Shown: piece after piece, positions 2,834 to 26,665 of the stretch
Numbering within the stretch: the stretch's first letter is position 1
How the letters are laid out: each line of letters begins with the position of its first letter
NCBI GenBank assembly: GCA_018434685.1
Contig: JAHDOV010000004.1
Coordinates: forward strand, 536,808 to 600,807
Reading direction: 5' to 3'
DNA: 64,000 nucleotides
DNA from: Deltaproteobacteria bacterium
GTDB lineage: Bacteria > Desulfobacterota > Desulfomonilia > UBA1062
Made by a program: the position numbers and the translations under genes
The notes under the pieces: model-generated
What the model saw: the letters and a program-made list of their open reading frames with translations, nothing else
What the model was told of the DNA's origin: nothing
Databases searched by the model: none

Positions 2834-3271
2834 ATGAAGACAACGGCAGTAAAACCGATGAAGTGTGAATTCGCCCGCGAGGGACTCCTGTGGGTGGACA
2901 AGATCGCAACCGGCGTGGGGATAATTCTCTTTAACCCCAGACAGAAGCTGGCGGCCGGACTGCATGTCCTCAGAGGCCGTTCCGGCGGGATGGCCCCCAA
3001 GAACCCCGAATATTTTGCCGATACCGCCCTGGTGTATGTCCTGGACGAATTCAAGAAGAAGGACGCGTTCAACGGGATTTCCATTGCCATTGCCGGTGGC
3101 GCCTCCATGCTGTCGTCGTCGGCGAATGAGAATGTCGGAGCGAGCCTCGTGGCAACCGTCAAGGAGATCCTGGCAAGCAATCGTCTTCCCATAAAGGTGG
3201 AGAGTGTCGGCGGCACGAAGCTCAGGACCATGATTCTCAATATTGATGAAGGAAAGATAAAAATCTCGTAG
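2834..3271 (+). CDS. CheD-like protein lacking the catalytic cysteine
   Basis: Length (145 aa) and layout match CheD chemoreceptor glutamine deamidases: a GLHVL segment with H44 in place of the conserved histidine region, YFADTALVYVLDEF, IAIAGGASML, ENVGA, and a final VGGTKLRTMILN block. CheD uses a Cys-His pair on receptor glutamines and also binds CheC. By eye the cysteine position falls on G27 in IATGVGI, so deamidation is unlikely and a binding or regulatory role is more plausible. It lies 48 bases before an HDOD gene. The family call is by motif pattern only. Confidence 0.72.
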   Translation: MKTTAVKPMKCEFAREGLLWVDKIATGVGIILFNPRQKLAAGLHVLRGRSGGMAPKNPEYFADTALVYVLDEFKKKDAFNGISIAIAGGASMLSSSANENVGASLVATVKEILASNRLPIKVESVGGTKLRTMILNIDEGKIKIS

Positions 3272-3319
3272 AGGTATGCCAAAATAAATGGATGAACAGG
3301 AAGGTGTCCGGAGCGCTTT

Positions 3320-4348
3320 ATGAACATACGATGTCCGCATTGTGAGAGAGAGTATACGATTGCCGATGAGCGCCTGAAGGCATACCGGGGTGATATCACG
3401 ATCCCCTGTCCCGGCTGCAAGGGGAAGATCCCGATCCATCTCGGTGAGCCTGCCTGTGCTCCCGGGCCGGCCCCGACATCTCCTGCAGCACAGCCGGATA
3501 CCGAAAGTACGCAGTGCCTGAAGGCCAGGATATTCCGGACGCTTACAGACCTGCCGCCCATGCCCCAGGTTGCCCAGAAGGCCAGGAAGGTCCTCTCGGA
3601 TCCGAATTCGAGTTTTACCGATCTGGCCAGGGTAATAGAAACCGACCAGGGGATCGTGACCCGGGTCCTGAAAATGGCGAACTCGCCCTATTATGGGCTC
3701 AGCGGCAATGTCTCGTCGGTCCAGCATGCCTCGGTGGTGCTCGGGTCCAAGACGCTCATGGAGGTGCTCAACCTGGCCTGTTCATCCGAACTCCTGGCCA
3801 AGACCCTGCCGGGCTACGATCTCGACACGGGGGATCTGTGGATGCATTCCCTTGCCGTTGCCAATGCCTCCCGGATCATTGCGAAGAAGGTGCATCCATC
3901 CCTGGAGCAGGATGCCTTTGCAGCCGGCCTCATCCATGATGTGGGAAAGATCATTCTCGACCCGTATGTCCTGGAGAGGAAGGATGAGTTTCAGGCCTTC
4001 GTCCGGGCCGGGAAGGAATCGTTCCTCTCTGCTGAAAAGCAGATCCTCGGGTTCGATCATGCCGAGCTCGCCTCGGAGGTCTGCAAAAGGTGGAAGATCC
4101 CGGATCATATCGCCCTGTCCATCCGCTGTCATCACGATCCCACCCCCTCCGGGGGCGACGATCTCTCCTACATCGTGCACATGGCCGATGCGGTCGCGCT
4201 CATGAGCGGCATCGGTGCAGGCCTGGACGGCATGCTCTACCGGATTCACGACCACGCAATGGAACACCTCCGCCTCACCCAGGATGATCTCGGTGATATC
4301 ATGGCGGATGCGGCCTCTTTCGTGGAAAAGACAGCGCTCGGCGTCTAG
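3320..4348 (+). CDS. HDOD domain protein with N-terminal zinc ribbon
   Basis: The N-terminus has CPHC (C5, C8) and CPGC (about C30, C33), a MJ0042-type zinc ribbon often found on deltaproteobacterial regulatory proteins. A Pro/Ala-rich linker follows. Residues from about 72 form an HDOD domain (LPPMPQVAQKARKVL, then RVLKMANSPYYGL, and later AAGLIHDVGKIIL). HDOD proteins are HD-like signalling proteins linked to chemotaxis, motility and c-di-GMP control. The CheD-like gene directly upstream suggests a shared signalling role. The enzymatic status of the HD-like site is uncertain. Confidence 0.88.
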   Translation: MNIRCPHCEREYTIADERLKAYRGDITIPCPGCKGKIPIHLGEPACAPGPAPTSPAAQPDTESTQCLKARIFRTLTDLPPMPQVAQKARKVLSDPNSSFTDLARVIETDQGIVTRVLKMANSPYYGLSGNVSSVQHASVVLGSKTLMEVLNLACSSELLAKTLPGYDLDTGDLWMHSLAVANASRIIAKKVHPSLEQDAFAAGLIHDVGKIILDPYVLERKDEFQAFVRAGKESFLSAEKQILGFDHAELASEVCKRWKIPDHIALSIRCHHDPTPSGGDDLSYIVHMADAVALMSGIGAGLDGMLYRIHDHAMEHLRLTQDDLGDIMADAASFVEKTALGV

Positions 4349-4532
4349 CAGGCATGGGGGCCTTCATGGCGGCCGAACCCCGGATGGAAGGCGAGGAATG
4401 CATCACGGGAATCCCGGCCACGTCGCACGACAGGCGCCACACCCCCTCCAGCCGGCTGCGATCAGGGCTCGAACCCTGTTGCCTTTCTCTCCCGTTGTGC
4501 GTATCACCACGATAAGGGGGGAGAAGACCTCT

Positions 4533-5423
4533 ATGAAATCTTTCGAACCGATCAGCCTCGAAAAACAGGGCCCATACCTCGATCGTCTGCAGAAAAGCCG
4601 CATCTGCGCCTCTGACTACAGTTTCATCAACCTCTGGGGCTGGGCATTAGAGTATGGCCTGCAATGGTCATGGGAAGATGACCTGGTGTGGATCAGGCAG
4701 ACCAGGCCCGTCGATGTTCAGTGGGCCCCGGTCGGCCGCTGGGAAGAGATCGACTGGAAAAAGGCTGTTGTGGAAGCGGGCGATGACCCGCTCGAGTTCA
4801 CGCGAATACCCGAGCCGCTGCTCACCGTCTGGCAGGGGCACTTTCAGCACGGGATTCGTGTGGAGGAAGCCCGGGGGCATTGGGAGTATCTCTACGAGGT
4901 GAAAGAGCTCGTGGAACTCAGGGGAAACCGCTTCCATAACAAGAAAAATCTGCTGAACCAGTTTCAGAAGAAGTACGACTTCAGCCTTGTGCCGTTTGGA
5001 GCTGACCTGGTGGAAAAGATCCGCCAGATGCAGCGCCAGTGGTGCATCTGGCGGGATTGCGAGTCCTCGGAAACCCTGTCCGCTGAGAACCGGGTGATTG
5101 AAAGGGTTTTAAGCAGCTGGGACAGGCTCAAGGGAATGACCGGCGGCGTGATCCTCGTGAACGGAGAGATCGCCGCCTTTACCATTGCAGAGGATTTCTG
5201 CGCGGAATCCCTCACGATCCACTTTGAAAAGGGTCTTGGCTCCTATACCGGGATCTACCAGGCCATCAACCAGATGTTCCTCGAGTCCGTGAAGGGATTC
5301 ACCACGGTCAACCGCCAGCAGGACCTGGATGACGACGGGCTGAGAAAAGCCAAACTTTCATACAATCCAAAGGGGTACATTAAAAAATATCGGGTTTCTC
5401 TTAATGCCGGCGACCTCGCATGA
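4533..5423 (+). CDS. DUF2156 domain protein (LPG-synthase C-terminal-like)
   Basis: The 296-residue protein has the DUF2156 pattern: an N-terminal DYSFINLWGW segment, a central RGNRFHNKKNLLNQF block, and a C-terminal GNAT-like fold with GVILVNGEIAAFTIAE and YNPKGYIKKY. The domain is shared with the aminoacyl-transferase part of phosphatidylglycerol lysyltransferases, but no membrane flippase domain is present, so the acceptor is unknown. ATG 4533 is preceded by AAGGGGGGAG. The open frame extends upstream to 4215, but that part overlaps the HDOD gene and has no recognisable protein features. Confidence 0.82.
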   Translation: MKSFEPISLEKQGPYLDRLQKSRICASDYSFINLWGWALEYGLQWSWEDDLVWIRQTRPVDVQWAPVGRWEEIDWKKAVVEAGDDPLEFTRIPEPLLTVWQGHFQHGIRVEEARGHWEYLYEVKELVELRGNRFHNKKNLLNQFQKKYDFSLVPFGADLVEKIRQMQRQWCIWRDCESSETLSAENRVIERVLSSWDRLKGMTGGVILVNGEIAAFTIAEDFCAESLTIHFEKGLGSYTGIYQAINQMFLESVKGFTTVNRQQDLDDDGLRKAKLSYNPKGYIKKYRVSLNAGDLA

Positions 5424-5467: not shown

Positions 5468-6481
5468 ATGAATATCATGTTTTCTCCGACAAACGGAACG
5501 GCGGAAATCTCCCGGGCAGCGCTCCGGGAGGTTCTGTCACAGATGCAGCATCCCTTCGGCGCAGGCGATGCAGTCGGGGTGAAGCTCCACTGGGGAGAGT
5601 TGGGCAACCACAGCTACCTCCCCCCGGTTTACGCCCGCGAGATCGTGAAATGGCTTCACGACCTGGGGGCGCGGCCCTTTATCTTCGACACGACCGTGCT
5701 CTATTCCGGGGGACGGCGCAGGGCCGAGGATTCCCTGAGGACCGCTGCGGAACACGGCTATACCAGGGAGTTTCTCGGCTGTGACGTGGTGATCGCCGAC
5801 GGCCTCGACGGCAGAGAGGTGGTGGATATCCCGTGCGATCTGAAGCACTTCAAGACGGTGCAGGTTGCTTCGGTCATCGACTCTGCGCAGGGATTCGTCA
5901 TCTTCTCGCACTTCAAGGGCCACCTGGGCACCGGCTTCGGGGGCGCGATCAAGAACATATCCATGGGGTTTGCCTCCCGGGCGCAAAAGCAGCGCATGCA
6001 TGCCGATGCCTCGCCGGTGCTGCTCAAGAGACGGTGCACCAGGTGCCGGATCTGTGTCGATGTCTGCCCCACCGGTGCGGCACAGATGAGCGGCGACGAA
6101 TACCCCGAGTACGACCTGGAAACGTGCATCGGCTGTGCCCAGTGCATTGCCATGTGCCCGGTGATGGCATTGAAGGTCTTCTTCTCGAGCGAAGCCGACG
6201 TGTTCCAGGAAAAGGTCGTGGAGACTGCGGCCGCTGTATGGAAACGAATCAGCGGGAGGACCGTCCTGGTCAATGCACTCATCAAGATCAGCGCTGATTG
6301 CGACTGCCTGCCCGGAGAACAGGAGATCATAGCCCCTGATGTCGGATTCGTCGGGGGATACCATCCCGTAGACATCGATGCCGAATCCATACGCCGGATG
6401 GGAGAAGAACCCCTCACCCGGACAAACCCCCATATCCCCTGGCAGCGGCAGTTTTCCTATGCCGGAGAGATAGGCTTTTAG
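5468..6481 (+). CDS. DUF362 domain iron-sulfur protein
   Basis: The first about 190 residues match DUF362 (VGVKLHWGELGNHSYLPP, then FSHFKGHLGTGFGGAIKNI). Two ferredoxin-type 4Fe-4S motifs follow, CTRCRICVDVCP and CIGCAQCIAMCP, at about residues 190-235. DUF362 proteins are common in anaerobes and are presumed redox proteins of unknown substrate. The ATG lies 44 bases after the DUF2156 gene, on the same strand. A role in electron transfer is inferred only from the cysteine motifs. Confidence 0.88.
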   Translation: MNIMFSPTNGTAEISRAALREVLSQMQHPFGAGDAVGVKLHWGELGNHSYLPPVYAREIVKWLHDLGARPFIFDTTVLYSGGRRRAEDSLRTAAEHGYTREFLGCDVVIADGLDGREVVDIPCDLKHFKTVQVASVIDSAQGFVIFSHFKGHLGTGFGGAIKNISMGFASRAQKQRMHADASPVLLKRRCTRCRICVDVCPTGAAQMSGDEYPEYDLETCIGCAQCIAMCPVMALKVFFSSEADVFQEKVVETAAAVWKRISGRTVLVNALIKISADCDCLPGEQEIIAPDVGFVGGYHPVDIDAESIRRMGEEPLTRTNPHIPWQRQFSYAGEIGF

Positions 6482-21514: not shown

Positions 21515-21607
21515 AGCATCAGAGTGATAAATCATAAACACCGGATTGTCTGGAGGGTGTTATACCCTGATGTTTTTTTTATGTACTTTCTTTGCGTGCC
21601 CAAAGAC

Positions 21608-21831
21608 AATTCGTCAGGACAGACGAATTGGACGCGCTTTAGTCGCGCCTGAAGGGTGAGGGGCATGGATGCCGCGAATCACAATTCGGCAGGACAGCCG
21701 AATTGGACGACCGAACGGTCGCCCGCAGGGCGAGGGACATGGATGTCCCGAGTCACAATTCGTTAGGACAGCCGAATTGGACGACCGAACGGTCGCCCGC
21801 AGGGCGAAGGCCATGGATGGCCTGAGTCAAA
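21608..21831. repeat. Three tandem 74-75 bp repeats, each with nested inverted repeats
   Basis: Units begin at 21608, 21683 and 21757 with AATTCG. Each contains an arm pair such as AATTCGTC/GACGAATT or AATTCGGC/GCCGAATT around AGGACA, a second inverted repeat (GACCGAACGGTC), and a third (GGGACATGGATGTCCC, GGCCATGGATGGCC or GGCATGGATGCC). The third stem differs between units, yet both arms change together, so base pairing is kept. Units two and three are nearly identical; unit one has diverged. The function is unknown. Confidence 0.88.
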
Positions 21832-21892
21832 CTACCAAAGAAATACACCCCCACGAAGCCGCTCCGCCGCGGCGGATACGTTCGCTCACTCA

Positions 21893-21968
21893 GGAAAAAT
21901 CAGCTCGCACTTAAACTCGCACAGCTGCGCTGCGCTCAGACAGAATTGCTCGTTTTTCTGATTTTTCC
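21893..21968. repeat. 11-bp inverted repeat enclosing 54 bases
   Basis: GGAAAAATCAG (21893-21903) pairs perfectly with CTGATTTTTCC (21958-21968). The enclosed segment carries GCTCG near both ends and an AGCTGCGCTGCGCT core. It lies at the boundary between G+C-rich DNA and the A+T-rich stretch beginning at about 22.0 kb. No transposase gene is nearby. Confidence 0.55.
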
Positions 21969-22304
21969 CTCCCTCGCTCACCGGTTTCAAGGGGGGAATT
22001 GCGGCTGGTGCTACGTTATTCAACTATGATCTCAAAGCATATCGTTATGTGAGAGGATAGATATCCAGAGATTATGTGCATTATCAGGCGAGATCACATA
22101 GTGATACATTAGCTATAATCAAAAAGACTGTTTCAAAATCCAGAGTTCGTGCCAAACTCACTACACTGTGAACAAAAGGTTATTAATACAAATCTACGTT
22201 AAAGATCTTAACAGAATGTGGGGGAAAATCTGCTAGTCAGATTACACTGAAGACATTCAAGACCATCTCCATACCAGAAAGGAAGTCAATGAGATACTTT
22301 GTAA
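21969..22304. other. A+T-rich intergenic region downstream of the K+ channel gene
   Basis: No convincing gene, RNA or repeat was seen in these 336 bases. The base composition changes from G+C-rich to A+T-rich at about 22,010, which marks the left side of the atypical segment. Confidence 0.5.
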
Positions 22305-23093
22305 TCAAAGTTCTTTCCCGCAATGTGGACAAATTTGCTTAGGCTCCTTGTTTTTTTGAATTGCCTCTATAAACCCGGCTCCCAGAATCCCTGTTGGTAA
22401 GGCAAACATACCGACCCCCAAGATGGCGATGATGCTTGCGCACAACTTGCCCAGAAGGGTTATAGGATAAATATCCCCATAACCAACAGTCGTAAGTGTA
22501 GCAACAGACCACCACATTGCTGCCGGAATACTTGAGAAAGCATTCGGCTGTACTTTATTCTCACAACAAAATAACAGGCTGGAGGACACAACCAAGAGGA
22601 GACCCATCAGAACCGACACTAGAACCAATTCCTCTTTTTTTGACAGGAAGACTTGTTTGATGAGATTAAAAGATGCGTAGTATCGACTGACCTTAGTAAT
22701 ACGGAGAATCCGCAGGAGCCGAATAACTCGGAGAGATAGAAGATCAATTCCGAGGAAAGGAAGGTAGAACGGCAAGATGGCGATAAGGTCAATAAGCAAC
22801 ATTGGCTGAAAGAAAAGACGAATGCGGCCACGAACTCGACCGTTGAATCTGTGATCAACCGTGCATGACCACAGCCGGGCGACGTATTCCAGAGTGAATA
22901 CAGCAACTGATATAATCTCAAATACATTCAGGAATGTGCCATAGCTTTCCTTAACAGATGGAACCGAGTCGATTATCACAACAATGACGTTGAGAAAGAT
23001 CAGTGTTAGGATACTGATATCTATCGCCCTACTTGCTATATCGCCTGGCTTCGCAGCTCCAAAAATCTCCCATGTGCGTTTGCGTATATTCAT
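22305..23093 (-). CDS. Voltage-gated-type K+ channel, six-helix
   Basis: The 262-residue protein has S1-S4-like helices, with an arginine-rich S4 (SLRVIRLLRILRITKVSRY), two pore helices and the K+ selectivity filter TTVGYGD at residues 201-207. The C-terminus ends in a short CPHCGKEL tail, half of a zinc ribbon. Homotetrameric K+ channels of this type conduct K+ across the inner membrane. Its ATG overlaps the stop of the upstream DUF4236 gene by four bases (ATGA), so the two are co-translated. Base composition is lower in G+C than in the flanking genes. Confidence 0.92.
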   Translation of the reverse strand: MNIRKRTWEIFGAAKPGDIASRAIDISILTLIFLNVIVVIIDSVPSVKESYGTFLNVFEIISVAVFTLEYVARLWSCTVDHRFNGRVRGRIRLFFQPMLLIDLIAILPFYLPFLGIDLLSLRVIRLLRILRITKVSRYYASFNLIKQVFLSKKEELVLVSVLMGLLLVVSSSLLFCCENKVQPNAFSSIPAAMWWSVATLTTVGYGDIYPITLLGKLCASIIAILGVGMFALPTGILGAGFIEAIQKNKEPKQICPHCGKEL

Positions 23094-24277
23094 GCAGATC
23101 TCTCTACTAAATAATTTCCCAACAACAGATCAATTAATCGGGCTGTGTAAATTGGAGCATCGGTTTTGAGAAAAACTGGCTGGGATGAAGTTGTCTTCGA
23201 TATTTCGATAATTCCTTCATCTATGTCGACATCAAGATCGGCTATATCTGTGTATCGGATATTGGTCGTACCTTCTCCCACGACGAAAATACGATTGTCA
23301 GTAACCACCATAGTTCCATCGCGCTGAACGGTATATTCGTATCCTGATAGTGATGTCTTGGATTTCTTTCTCTTAAGTACTCTGGCCGAGCACTGGTAGT
23401 ATGCTTTCTCGTTCTTTTGCGTTCGGACGGCCAACTTATCAAATGGAATTGGCTCAAGCGGAAGGCTGAGTTCCTGAGTGTCAATAATCTCGTGTACAAT
23501 CTTCAATTCATGCTGGACCTCGTTCTGGGGTATCCCCAATCCTGAGATGAGATTGCTTAGGGTATCAAGTTCGTCCTTTGTTATTTCTCGATCCTGAATC
23601 GCTTCAAGATAGGCCGCTGAGAAAATATCTTTCTTTGTCTTCGAACGTAACTCAGGACTGATCCTCAATGCTTGCTCGGCAGCGCATATAGTCGAAGATT
23701 CATCTTCTGTTATGAAACCATCATCAAGCACCTTGTCGAGAATAGCTTGATAAACATCAGTCTCGATTTGCTCGATCTCCCTCATAATGTTTTCGCTCTT
23801 GGGTAACTTCATTTGCAATTGACTTAACGATGCAAGCGCTGAGACACTTGGTGGGGACTTGGACATAACAAATATGCTGTCAAGGCTCTTATTGTATTCC
23901 GAGACGAATTTCTTTCTCTGGAAACGAACCAACCAACGCACGGCAAGAAGACCCAAAGCAACCATAATCCCAACAACTATCACGACAGGGTTTTCGGTCA
24001 GCCATAATAAAAGCCAAACGCCAAACACGATGGCAAATACGGCTAGTACAAACTTTACTAAGCCCTCGGGGCCTGCATTAGATTGGCTTGTCCTCGATCC
24101 ACCAGATGGCAGGTATTGTCGGTAGTAGAGACCCTGCCGTCCTGCGTGAACATAAGTTCCGCTAGGCCCGACACCAAATCGAGCACCTTTTACGCCTGCA
24201 GATATGCCAAGGCCGCTCTTCGATAAGTTGAAGCGAACAGGGCCAGCGCGGAAACCTTTTCTCAGGTAAAGACCCAT
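23090..24277 (-). CDS. DUF4236 protein with membrane hairpin, TerB-like and PH-like regions
   Basis: Residues 1-58 match DUF4236 (LRKGFRAGPVRFNLSKSGLGIS, then GPSGTYVHAG). Two hydrophobic helices at about 72-115 follow. Residues about 165-255 contain two copies of an acidic helical motif (DDGFITEDE and DREITKDE) like TerB or EF-hand-like domains. The last about 100 residues are beta-rich and end in an amphipathic helix, like a PH-type membrane or ligand domain (GTMVVTDNRIFVVGEGTTNI). The domain order is seen directly; the TerB and PH labels are by pattern. It is the first gene of a two-gene operon with the K+ channel. Confidence 0.75.
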   Translation of the reverse strand: MGLYLRKGFRAGPVRFNLSKSGLGISAGVKGARFGVGPSGTYVHAGRQGLYYRQYLPSGGSRTSQSNAGPEGLVKFVLAVFAIVFGVWLLLWLTENPVVIVVGIMVALGLLAVRWLVRFQRKKFVSEYNKSLDSIFVMSKSPPSVSALASLSQLQMKLPKSENIMREIEQIETDVYQAILDKVLDDGFITEDESSTICAAEQALRISPELRSKTKKDIFSAAYLEAIQDREITKDELDTLSNLISGLGIPQNEVQHELKIVHEIIDTQELSLPLEPIPFDKLAVRTQKNEKAYYQCSARVLKRKKSKTSLSGYEYTVQRDGTMVVTDNRIFVVGEGTTNIRYTDIADLDVDIDEGIIEISKTTSSQPVFLKTDAPIYTARLIDLLLGNYLVERSA

Positions 24278-25063
24278 TTTCTCTATTGTCCCTCTATAAC
24301 ACTTAATATGCCTAATTCCTTAAAGATAAGATAACAGGGCAATTAAGAAACAACTATATTACATTTTCTTATATTGTATGTGACATGCGCATCAGAAGCA
24401 TTTAAGATATATCATACTTAATGTAGCATGCAATAATTTTATAGATCAAATCCTAGTGATGAGACAAATTCCGGGAGACTAGGTTAATCGGCGGCGGATT
24501 CACATTAAAGTCAATATATCTCAAAAAAAAGGAACCGATTTGTTTTTACCCCTTGTGAACATATCCTTTGATTATAATAACAAACCAACAAGCCAATCGA
24601 AGTATACATAACTATAAGATCTCATCTCTTCAGCCGGATTGAATATACCTGTCATAACTACGTTTTTTCTTTAATCTCTGAAATTCTAATATCTCAGATA
24701 GAAATCTGTAGAAGTCACAGCCTCCTGTCCAGATCAGCAAGGAGATCTAAGCTTCACCGTACAATGATAGCACTCGTATATGGCCGGTTTATCGATTGAC
24801 TTTCCCCAGGGTGGGGTTATCTTTTTATTTGTTAATCTTTATGGATGTATTCTTTGAGTGTTTGTCCCTGAAATGATCCTTTCTTTGCTTTTTACATGCA
24901 CGTTCCTTCGAAGAAGAATTTTGTAGAGGAGTTTTATTTTACCACTACTGAAGAGAAAGGAGGTGAAACCGGGCTGGTTCCATTGAGTTGGCAATGGGGA
25001 TCAGTCTTTCAGCAAATAATTGGGACATGAAAAAAACGAATAAAATCAATTGGGAGGTAAATT
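24278..25063. other. Long A+T-rich non-coding region upstream of the arylsulfotransferase gene
   Basis: These 786 bases hold no plausible gene. They must contain the promoter of the DUF4236/K+ channel operon (leftward) and that of the arylsulfotransferase gene (rightward). One candidate for the latter is TTGACT (24796-24801) with TATCTT (24818-24823), 16-base spacing; a CCCC-AGGGT-GGGG hairpin lies in its spacer. A GGGAGG ribosome-binding site precedes ATG 25064. No tRNA or known RNA was recognised. Confidence 0.45.
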
Positions 25064-26665
25064 ATGCACAGGAAAGTCGTAATGATCGTCTCAGGCCTTT
25101 TTTGGGTGATCATCGTGGCAGCTTTTCTGGCACCTCCGGCAGGCAATTCATTCTGGTACAGCGACCTCGATAAGATCACTGAATATTGTGATGAAGATAC
25201 AGCACAGAACCTGCACAACTATCTGCTTGAAGAAGTTCTGCCGGACCTGGATCGGAACCTGGAGTTGCTGGACAACAGGGAAGGGGACAACGGTGTAACG
25301 GTCTACAAGAAAGGGAGAGCCTGGGAAGGGTACACATTGCTGAGTTCCATCAGGGGACACAAATCTGACAAGAAGCCGCCGGCAGGCGTGGCGGATTTAG
25401 GCTTGTGCGGGGTAATCCTCATCGACATGGAGGGGAACATAGTCAATGATTGGCCTCTCCTGGCTGTGCCTGCCAAGATGCTGCCGGGAGGTCATATTCT
25501 GGGTATGGCAATTACACCGGCGAACGGCCCCCCGGTAAACGGTATCCAGACCCTGATGCAGATGGATTGGTATGGAAATGAAGTATGGCGATGGAGCGGG
25601 CCTCCCGGTGTGATAGGCGGGGCGAGGGTTCACCATGACTTCCAGAGAGAAGGCAATCCTGTGGGCTACTACGTCCCCGGTCAGAATTCATTGGTGAATT
25701 CAGGAAAGACATTGGTCCTGTCAATGGCAGGCAGTCCCCCGGCTGGGACCGTCTCGGCCCCGGGCATCAGTAATTTCCTCTTGCAGGAGGAGGCCATTTA
25801 TGAGGTCGCGGCGGACGGGGCTGTGCTGTGGTCGTGGATTCCCTCGGAGCATTTTGACCAGATGGGATTTGACGAGGCAGCTAAAGATGCAATAATGACT
25901 GTCAGGGTGATGGGCATAGGCGGCGTTGCGGGTGATCCAAACGGCCCCACCGACTGGCAGCACATCAACTCGACATCCTATCTCGGGCCGAATGAGTGGT
26001 ATGCCAACGGCGATCTCCGCTTTCACCCGGACAATATCATCTATGATTCCCGCACTGCCAATTATATTGCCATCATAGCCAGACACGACAATCCTGGAAA
26101 GTGGGTGGCGGGCGATATCGTCTGGCGGGTAGGGCCGCATTACTCACAGGGGTATAACGAGAGCAGGATCGGTCAGATTATCGGACCCCACATGGCTCAT
26201 ATGATTCCGCGACATCTTCCCGGCGCGGGAAACATTCTGGTGTTTGATAATGGGGGCGTTGCCGGGTACGGTTCCCTGTTGCCGGGGATGCCGGGCACCT
26301 ATCCTGCCACGTTCAGAGATTATTCACGGATTATCGAGTTCGACCCGATCACCTTCAAGACAGTTTGGGAGTACACGTGTCCGGAGAAGCGTACCCTAAG
26401 GAACAGGGCCATGGAACGGAAGTTCTACAGCCGGCTTATCAGCGGTGCGCAGCGGCTTCCCAACGGGAATACCCTCATTACGGAGGGCGCCTATGGACGG
26501 GTCTTTGAGGTGAGTCGGCGAGGAGAGATCGTCTGGGAATATATCCACAAGGAGGAGTATGCCGACGGGCAGGGACCTGTCTTGGGATTTCTTCCCAACA
26601 CCGCTATTTATCGTGCATACCGGGTCCCCAAACAGTGGGTTCCGCGCACTAAAGAGTACAAGTAG
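25064..26665 (+). CDS. Aryl-sulfate sulfotransferase (ASST family)
   Basis: An N-terminal signal or anchor (VVMIVSGLFWVIIVAAFLAPP) is followed by a 500-residue beta-propeller with the ASST features: GVILIDMEGNIVNDWP, an early HHDFQREGNPVGYYV, DWQHINSTSYLG and HMAHMIPRHLPGAGNILVFDNG, which carry the histidines expected at the active site, and a C-terminal NGNTLITEGAYGRVFEV. ASSTs move sulfate between phenolic compounds in the periplasm through a sulfo-histidine intermediate, without PAPS. No DsbA/DsbB-like partner is adjacent. It ends just before a strong hairpin. Confidence 0.88.
   Translation: MHRKVVMIVSGLFWVIIVAAFLAPPAGNSFWYSDLDKITEYCDEDTAQNLHNYLLEEVLPDLDRNLELLDNREGDNGVTVYKKGRAWEGYTLLSSIRGHKSDKKPPAGVADLGLCGVILIDMEGNIVNDWPLLAVPAKMLPGGHILGMAITPANGPPVNGIQTLMQMDWYGNEVWRWSGPPGVIGGARVHHDFQREGNPVGYYVPGQNSLVNSGKTLVLSMAGSPPAGTVSAPGISNFLLQEEAIYEVAADGAVLWSWIPSEHFDQMGFDEAAKDAIMTVRVMGIGGVAGDPNGPTDWQHINSTSYLGPNEWYANGDLRFHPDNIIYDSRTANYIAIIARHDNPGKWVAGDIVWRVGPHYSQGYNESRIGQIIGPHMAHMIPRHLPGAGNILVFDNGGVAGYGSLLPGMPGTYPATFRDYSRIIEFDPITFKTVWEYTCPEKRTLRNRAMERKFYSRLISGAQRLPNGNTLITEGAYGRVFEVSRRGEIVWEYIHKEEYADGQGPVLGFLPNTAIYRAYRVPKQWVPRTKEYK

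Follow-up and report, generated by a model that had tools for sequence, protein, structure and literature searches.

The gene pair and its surroundings

The window analysed here is a stretch of 64,000 nucleotides from a Deltaproteobacteria bacterium of the Desulfomonilia (contig JAHDOV010000004.1). It carries two overlapping genes on the minus strand, one encoding a K+ channel and the other a membrane protein, here called the partner. The features of the locus are as follows, with the basis of each assignment in brackets.

22305..23093, minus strand: K+ channel gene, Kv-type with six transmembrane helices, 262 aa (ORF, Pfam, PDB sequence matches, alignments)
23090..23093, minus strand: ATGA overlap of the partner stop codon (TGA) and the channel start codon (ATG) (sequence)
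23090..24277, minus strand: partner gene, 395 aa (ORF, Pfam, AF2 model, Foldseek, PADLOC PDC-S48, orthologues); layout of the protein: DUF4236 at 4-53, membrane helices at about 73-93 and 97-118, TerB-like region at about 145-268, PH-like domain at about 288-394
22120..25050, no strand: A+T-rich segment of 40-45% GC with approximate boundaries, which includes the pair as well as long intergenic stretches (composition)
21574..22119 (approximate), no strand: dispersed repeat adjoining the pair, not part of the module (repeat comparison)

The channel was found as a frame of 262 codons at 23093-22305 (-), where the original prediction had placed it. Its product matched Ion_trans (PF00520) at 4e-30 over residues 22-244 (S1-S6), exceeding the cut-off, and Ion_trans_2 at 1.8e-15. 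The K+ selectivity filter, TTVGYGD, occupies residues 201-207 and is invariant across the aligned channel homologues, and S4 carries six basic residues, one at every third position (R122, R125, R128, R131, K134 and R137), which are invariant in five homologues. The protein ends in a short CxxC tail, CPHCGKEL. Its best PDB sequence matches were KCNQ2/5/4, KCNQ1 and Kv2.1, and against the named NCBIfam equivalog for prokaryotic Kv channels it scored 44.8 bits, far under the cut-off of 300. Pfam detected no RCK/TrkA_N domain in either the channel or the partner. Judged by its sequence, the channel is of the voltage-gated type and belongs to a known kind; the Ion_trans match, the filter and the six-charge S4 confirm that the gene was correctly recognised.

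The partner had been described as a DUF4236 domain followed by a membrane hairpin, TerB-like repeats and a PH-like tail, and this layout was recovered by several methods. DUF4236 (PF14020) was matched at 3.9e-14 over residues 4-53, with 53.3 bits against a cut-off of 27; its fold was modelled with low confidence as a beta meander that has no PDB match. An AlphaFold2 model based on three orthologues had a mean pLDDT of 71.7, the N-terminal 73 residues being poor. It showed helices at 70-93 and 97-137, followed by six helices between 145 and 268 and, at 292-394, a beta domain that has a helix at its C-terminus. In Foldseek searches the tail of this model matched solved PH-like domains, namely Lam6 and further PH-domain entries, with a best E of 1.8e-4, and in Pfam the bPH_3 model scored 3.6e-4 and 21.4 bits, slightly under its curated cut-off of 23. 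The middle region, which contains two acidic motifs (LDDGFITEDE and IQDREITKDE), matched the TerB-like part of PADLOC PDC-S48 at 1.4e-10, over profile positions 218-316 only. TerB (PF05099) was not listed for the partner itself at E<=1; among its homologues, however, L112 (27.4) and L250 (26.1), the latter having the same full layout, exceed the cut-off of 24.4. A profile of the TerB-like region also retrieved the helical Tic110 in the PDB at 5e-4. The DUF4236 domain and the TerB/PH part are probably both cytoplasmic, since the hairpin and the basic residues after its second helix would place both ends inside according to the positive-inside rule.

The plus strand reads TCAT at 23090-23093, hence ATGA in the coding direction, with the partner upstream and the channel downstream, just as the overlap had been reported. 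The difference in base composition between the island and its flanks was also reproduced. The pair has 45.1% GC against 56.6% for the remainder of the window, none of 1140 stretches of equal length taken outside the island was as GC-poor, and GC at the third codon position was 45-46% in the pair compared with 81-83% in the left-hand neighbours. The island was further said to start beside tandem hairpin repeats. Three tandem 74-nt units with inverted repeats do lie at 21606-21829, but they belong to the dispersed repeat, which is unrelated to the island. As this repeat occurs in many copies in the source genome and in genomes of the same genus, the hairpin repeats are no marker of the island and were ruled out as its boundary or attachment site. 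No tRNA or RNA element was found at the junction, and promoter-like sites were not in excess of chance expectation.

The left flank, with genes for RNase Z and Peptidase_MA, is conserved within the same family, whereas the pair is not. Neither the partner nor the channel has an orthologue among 23 same-family genomes; a housekeeping orthologue of the channel, which had been named as a possible argument against a dedicated system, was therefore not seen in these close relatives. The nearest other channel in the source genome is a 35% paralogue on a different contig. An exact empty site was not found in the relatives, in which the RNase Z/Peptidase_MA side is conserved and the opposite side differs in each. 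On the far side of the pair, an arylsulfotransferase-like gene (25064-26665) had no DNA match in the 23 same-family genomes, and the acquired stretch may therefore extend beyond the A+T-rich part. In two same-family relatives a K+-channel-like gene (565-579 aa) lies near RNase Z (L207 3743-5482 and L208 8192-9889), at the place where the window has an AMP-binding enzyme.

Recurrence of the pair and of the DUF4236-channel link

GTDB genome contigs were scanned with five related channels and the best 80 loci were inspected. The complete pair was present in the same order in 2 of these 80, one from a Sumerlaeota MAG (L081) and one from a Nitrospina MAG (L096), whose partners are 54% and 49% identical to that of the window over the full length. 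The pairs emerged from this channel-alignment scan; a single-protein scan of genome contigs with the partner gave no match. A fourth copy was found on an IMG/VR contig (L216; partner 50%, channel 62-63% identical). Across these three loci the identity to the window was 49-54% for the partner and 58-68% for the channel, and the two genes either overlap or lie 5 nt apart, L096 having a 4-nt overlap as well (6001-6004). In all four pair loci the GC content of the pair (45, 48, 45 and 39%) was 10-15 points lower than that of the surrounding DNA (57, 60, 55 and 54%). A tree of 87 channels, from which L216 was left out, placed the channels of the window, L081 and L096 in a supported clade (100/91) together with one member that has no partner (L080). 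The pairing is thus real and mobile, and it has been transferred horizontally between unrelated phyla. The full-length pair occurs again in two other phyla and on an IMG/VR contig, and the closest relatives have neither gene; this supports the proposal of a dedicated module of the sensor-channel type.

The pair is nevertheless rare. Beyond the known copies, no further full-length close partner was found among 77 genomes of Nitrospinota, 40 of Sumerlaeota and 64 of Latescibacterota. The refuting conditions that had been proposed gave a mixed outcome: 76 of the best 80 channel loci had neither a DUF4236 nor a TerB-PH neighbour. In a sample of 395 genomes from the window's phylum DUF4236 was present in 31, and in only 2 of these (the window and L063) was it beside a channel. 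Independent occurrence of the two genes, which had been named as a finding that would argue against a dedicated system, was therefore observed for both families. A remote full-length homologue of the partner (L251) also has no channel beside it. Each family thus works alone or with others as well, and neither generally needs the other.

A wider link between DUF4236 and channels was found at other loci. Other DUF4236 proteins lie close to channels of the same subfamily in Treponema, in a second spirochaete, in Hymenobacter and in Aristaeella. In the Treponema MAG (L138) the channel comes first; on the Hymenobacter plasmid (L010) two small genes, and on the Aristaeella plasmid (L014) one gene, lie between the DUF4236 gene and the channel. 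A Salinibacter plasmid (L013) carries the channel with a DUF4236-like/DUF3320 protein, in Margulisbacteria (L112) the gene before the channel encodes a TerB-PH protein that lacks DUF4236, and in the window's own phylum (L063) a DUF4236 gene is divergent from another Kv-type channel. In a survey anchored on the partner, 393 Spirochaetota genomes were searched with the partner alignment instead of the channel, and channels were found to adjoin the DUF4236 genes of L138, L253 and L259. In L259 a DUF4236 gene of a different type from that of the window has an ATGA overlap into the channel (6182-6185). L253 encodes a remote full-length homologue of the partner (22% over 432 columns, E 7e-24); next to it, in divergent orientation, lies a gene for a K+ channel that has an RCK domain. 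DUF4236 proteins of two C-terminal types accompany the channel subfamily of the window, the window type and that of L259 and L014.

By binomial estimates, the chance of a DUF4236 flank in 3 of the best 80 channel loci was about 1e-8, or 9e-6 if two related loci are counted once, and that for 3 of 14 spirochaete loci was 4e-6, one of the three (L138) being already known from the channel scan. These estimates assume gene numbers and treat loci as independent, and they indicate orders of magnitude only; as a rough estimate, the association of DUF4236 with channels is far above chance. The association recurs with two types of channel and several types of partner, which suggests DUF4236 or its membrane anchor as the shared element of the coupling.

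Some further observations were made on these families. The second DUF4236 type (L259, L014, L255, L260, L261) shares a long C-terminal region that is 21-39% identical pairwise, and in L255 it is divided between two genes. In L263, the gene that immediately follows a DUF4236 gene (3121-3801, -) starts like the channel (MVYKNIKKRTFEIIQAS...FDICLIVLV) and then continues with unrelated sequence, so that it looks like a decayed pair. The P. aeruginosa plasmid pHPA0875-2 (L016) has a DUF4236 gene of the window's subtype at 3914-5098, flanked on one side by a giant DUF3320 protein and on the other by a UvrD-like helicase, both of them defence-like. Genes that read as toxin-antitoxin pairs of the HicA/HicB and AbrB/Doc kinds lie near the partner homologues in L251 (5357-6043) and L096 (414-1024). 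Kv-type channels of the same subfamily occur in prophages and phages of Clostridia-like hosts (L141, L146, L157, L222 (Dulem virus 33), L229, L232 and L233), where they adjoin a repressor and, in many cases, an integrase; some show a 4-nt overlap. They are candidates for exclusion genes expressed in lysogens. A close relative of the channel, with 46% identity and a CxxC tail, is encoded by the archaeal tailed virus Halorubrum virus Humcor1 (L221, 5986-6816).

A proposed regulatory subunit and the alternatives

The reading that we favour, and consider probable, is that of a horizontally transferred two-gene module in which the DUF4236-TerB-PH protein is the sensor or regulatory subunit that gates the K+ channel. 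The upstream gene would give a membrane-anchored cytoplasmic protein consisting of the DUF4236 beta domain, the hairpin, the TerB-like helices and the PH-like domain, and this protein would serve as both sensor and regulatory subunit of the downstream tetrameric channel of the voltage-gated type. It is read in this way because a membrane protein with cytosolic sensing domains is translated together with a tetrameric channel, and the joint travel of both genes between unrelated phyla suggests that the second protein controls the channel. The two proteins would then be in physical contact, with regulation running from partner to channel. As to the stimulus, the TerB-like and PH-like parts may detect a change in a lipid, an ion or another ligand, and under membrane, ion or infection stress the partner would alter the gating of the channel. 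The benefit to the cell could lie in the resulting K+ flux or shift in membrane potential, which would slow or protect it.

Alternatively, the pair could serve ion or osmotic homeostasis, with the partner tuning the K+ channel to turgor, Ca2+ or lipid state as a habitat-dependent, transferable accessory trait that has no role in conflict. This we regard as possible but less likely. TerB families have known links with stress and with metal handling, the filter and S4 of the channel are intact, and haloarchaeal relatives of the channel adjoin cation/proton antiporters, a mechanosensitive channel, TrkA-C and universal stress genes; the loci with such neighbours, however, belong to other channel clades in the tree, and the rarity of the pair and its absence from the closest relatives are unlike core homeostasis genes.

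The other functional alternative is conflict with phages or mobile elements, in which the partner would sense infection and open the channel, and the loss of K+ and membrane potential would abort the infection in the manner proposed for RexAB of lambda and gp30/gp31 of Sbash. Sensor-plus-channel abortive systems of this kind exist (PMC6426596; PMC12894663), and their exclusion genes are found beside prophage repressors and integrases (PMC6426596, PMC12894663). Consistent with such a role are the mobility signature in all four pair loci, the copy on an IMG/VR contig, the occurrence of DUF4236 with a channel on plasmids and near an integrase, the temperate-phage relatives of the channel that adjoin repressors or integrases, some with a short overlap, and the match of the TerB-like region to the PADLOC candidate PDC-S48. 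That match, however, covers the TerB-like part only, and PDC-S48 is itself only a candidate family; the channel matched no PADLOC model, most of its relatives stand alone, and the haloarchaeal ones adjoin ion-homeostasis genes. At the locus itself the suggested link to defence was not borne out, as none of the 9 flanking genes in the window had a PADLOC match. An anti-phage role for the pair is only suggestive, and we regard it as rather unlikely. That the two genes are functionally independent passengers, co-transcribed and together merely through joint transfer, is improbable: both families are apart in most genomes, but the full-length pair has been kept at 49-68% identity over several phyla, DUF4236 is repeatedly found with channels of different clades and with an RCK channel, and the genes show 4-nt overlaps.

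A broader and quite tentative extension of the favoured regulatory reading is that DUF4236 marks a new class of mobile conflict or stress systems, spread over several phyla, plasmids and prophages, in which modular membrane sensors (DUF4236 with TerB-PH or other C-terminal domains) would control voltage-gated-type or RCK K+ channels as effectors.

The DUF4236 family has been essentially unstudied, with a single passing mention in 5.39 million open papers, and the recurrent, horizontally moved link to K+ channels offers it a first function that can be tested. A partner that gates the channel would represent a bacterial auxiliary subunit of a Kv-type channel. Should infection be the trigger, the pair would constitute an abortive system whose effector is a selective K+ channel, and this option is directly testable because relatives of the channel in prophages adjoin repressors. 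The open-licence papers searched for the pair, DUF4236 function, PDC-S48 and prophage K+ channels contained no description of the pair or of what DUF4236 does, in keeping with the prediction of an undescribed module.

Comparison with known systems

In the Hailong system, work on which is cited in PMC12483538, the HalA channel is controlled by the nucleotide product of HalB. The window pair is similar in having an ion channel as effector in a two-gene bacterial system, but no nucleotidyltransferase was found in either protein of the pair or among the 9 flanking genes examined. The two-gene logic resembles that of known sensor-channel pairs, lambda RexAB and Sbash gp30/gp31, which consist of a prophage-encoded cytoplasmic sensor and a membrane channel able to collapse the membrane potential (PMC6426596, PMC12894663). 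In contrast to these, the partner is itself membrane-anchored, and Pfam found no DUF4747 (the RexA-type sensor) in partner or channel. RexB and gp31 have four predicted membrane helices each, unlike the six-helix channel of the window. To our knowledge neither has a K+ filter.

PADLOC PDC-S48, a candidate defence gene that combines a DEDDh exonuclease with a TerB-like region, shares the latter with the partner at positions 218-316. The exonuclease forms the N-terminal part of the model (L146), outside this match, and the partner, which has no such domain, carries DUF4236, a hairpin and a PH-like domain instead and lies in another gene context. In RCK-gated channels (MthK, Slo type) a K+ channel is likewise under a cytoplasmic regulatory module, and the partner homologue in L253 adjoins a channel of this kind; in the window pair, which lacks RCK, a distinct membrane protein carrying TerB-like and PH-like domains is the proposed regulator. 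Closest to the channel itself are the prokaryotic Kv-type channels (PF00520; KvAP/KCNQ-like), with which it shares the six helices, the basic residue at every third position of S4 and TTVGYGD, and from which it differs in its short CPHCGKEL tail and in the overlapping gene for a membrane partner. The architecture of this partner and its link to K+ channels appear to be new.
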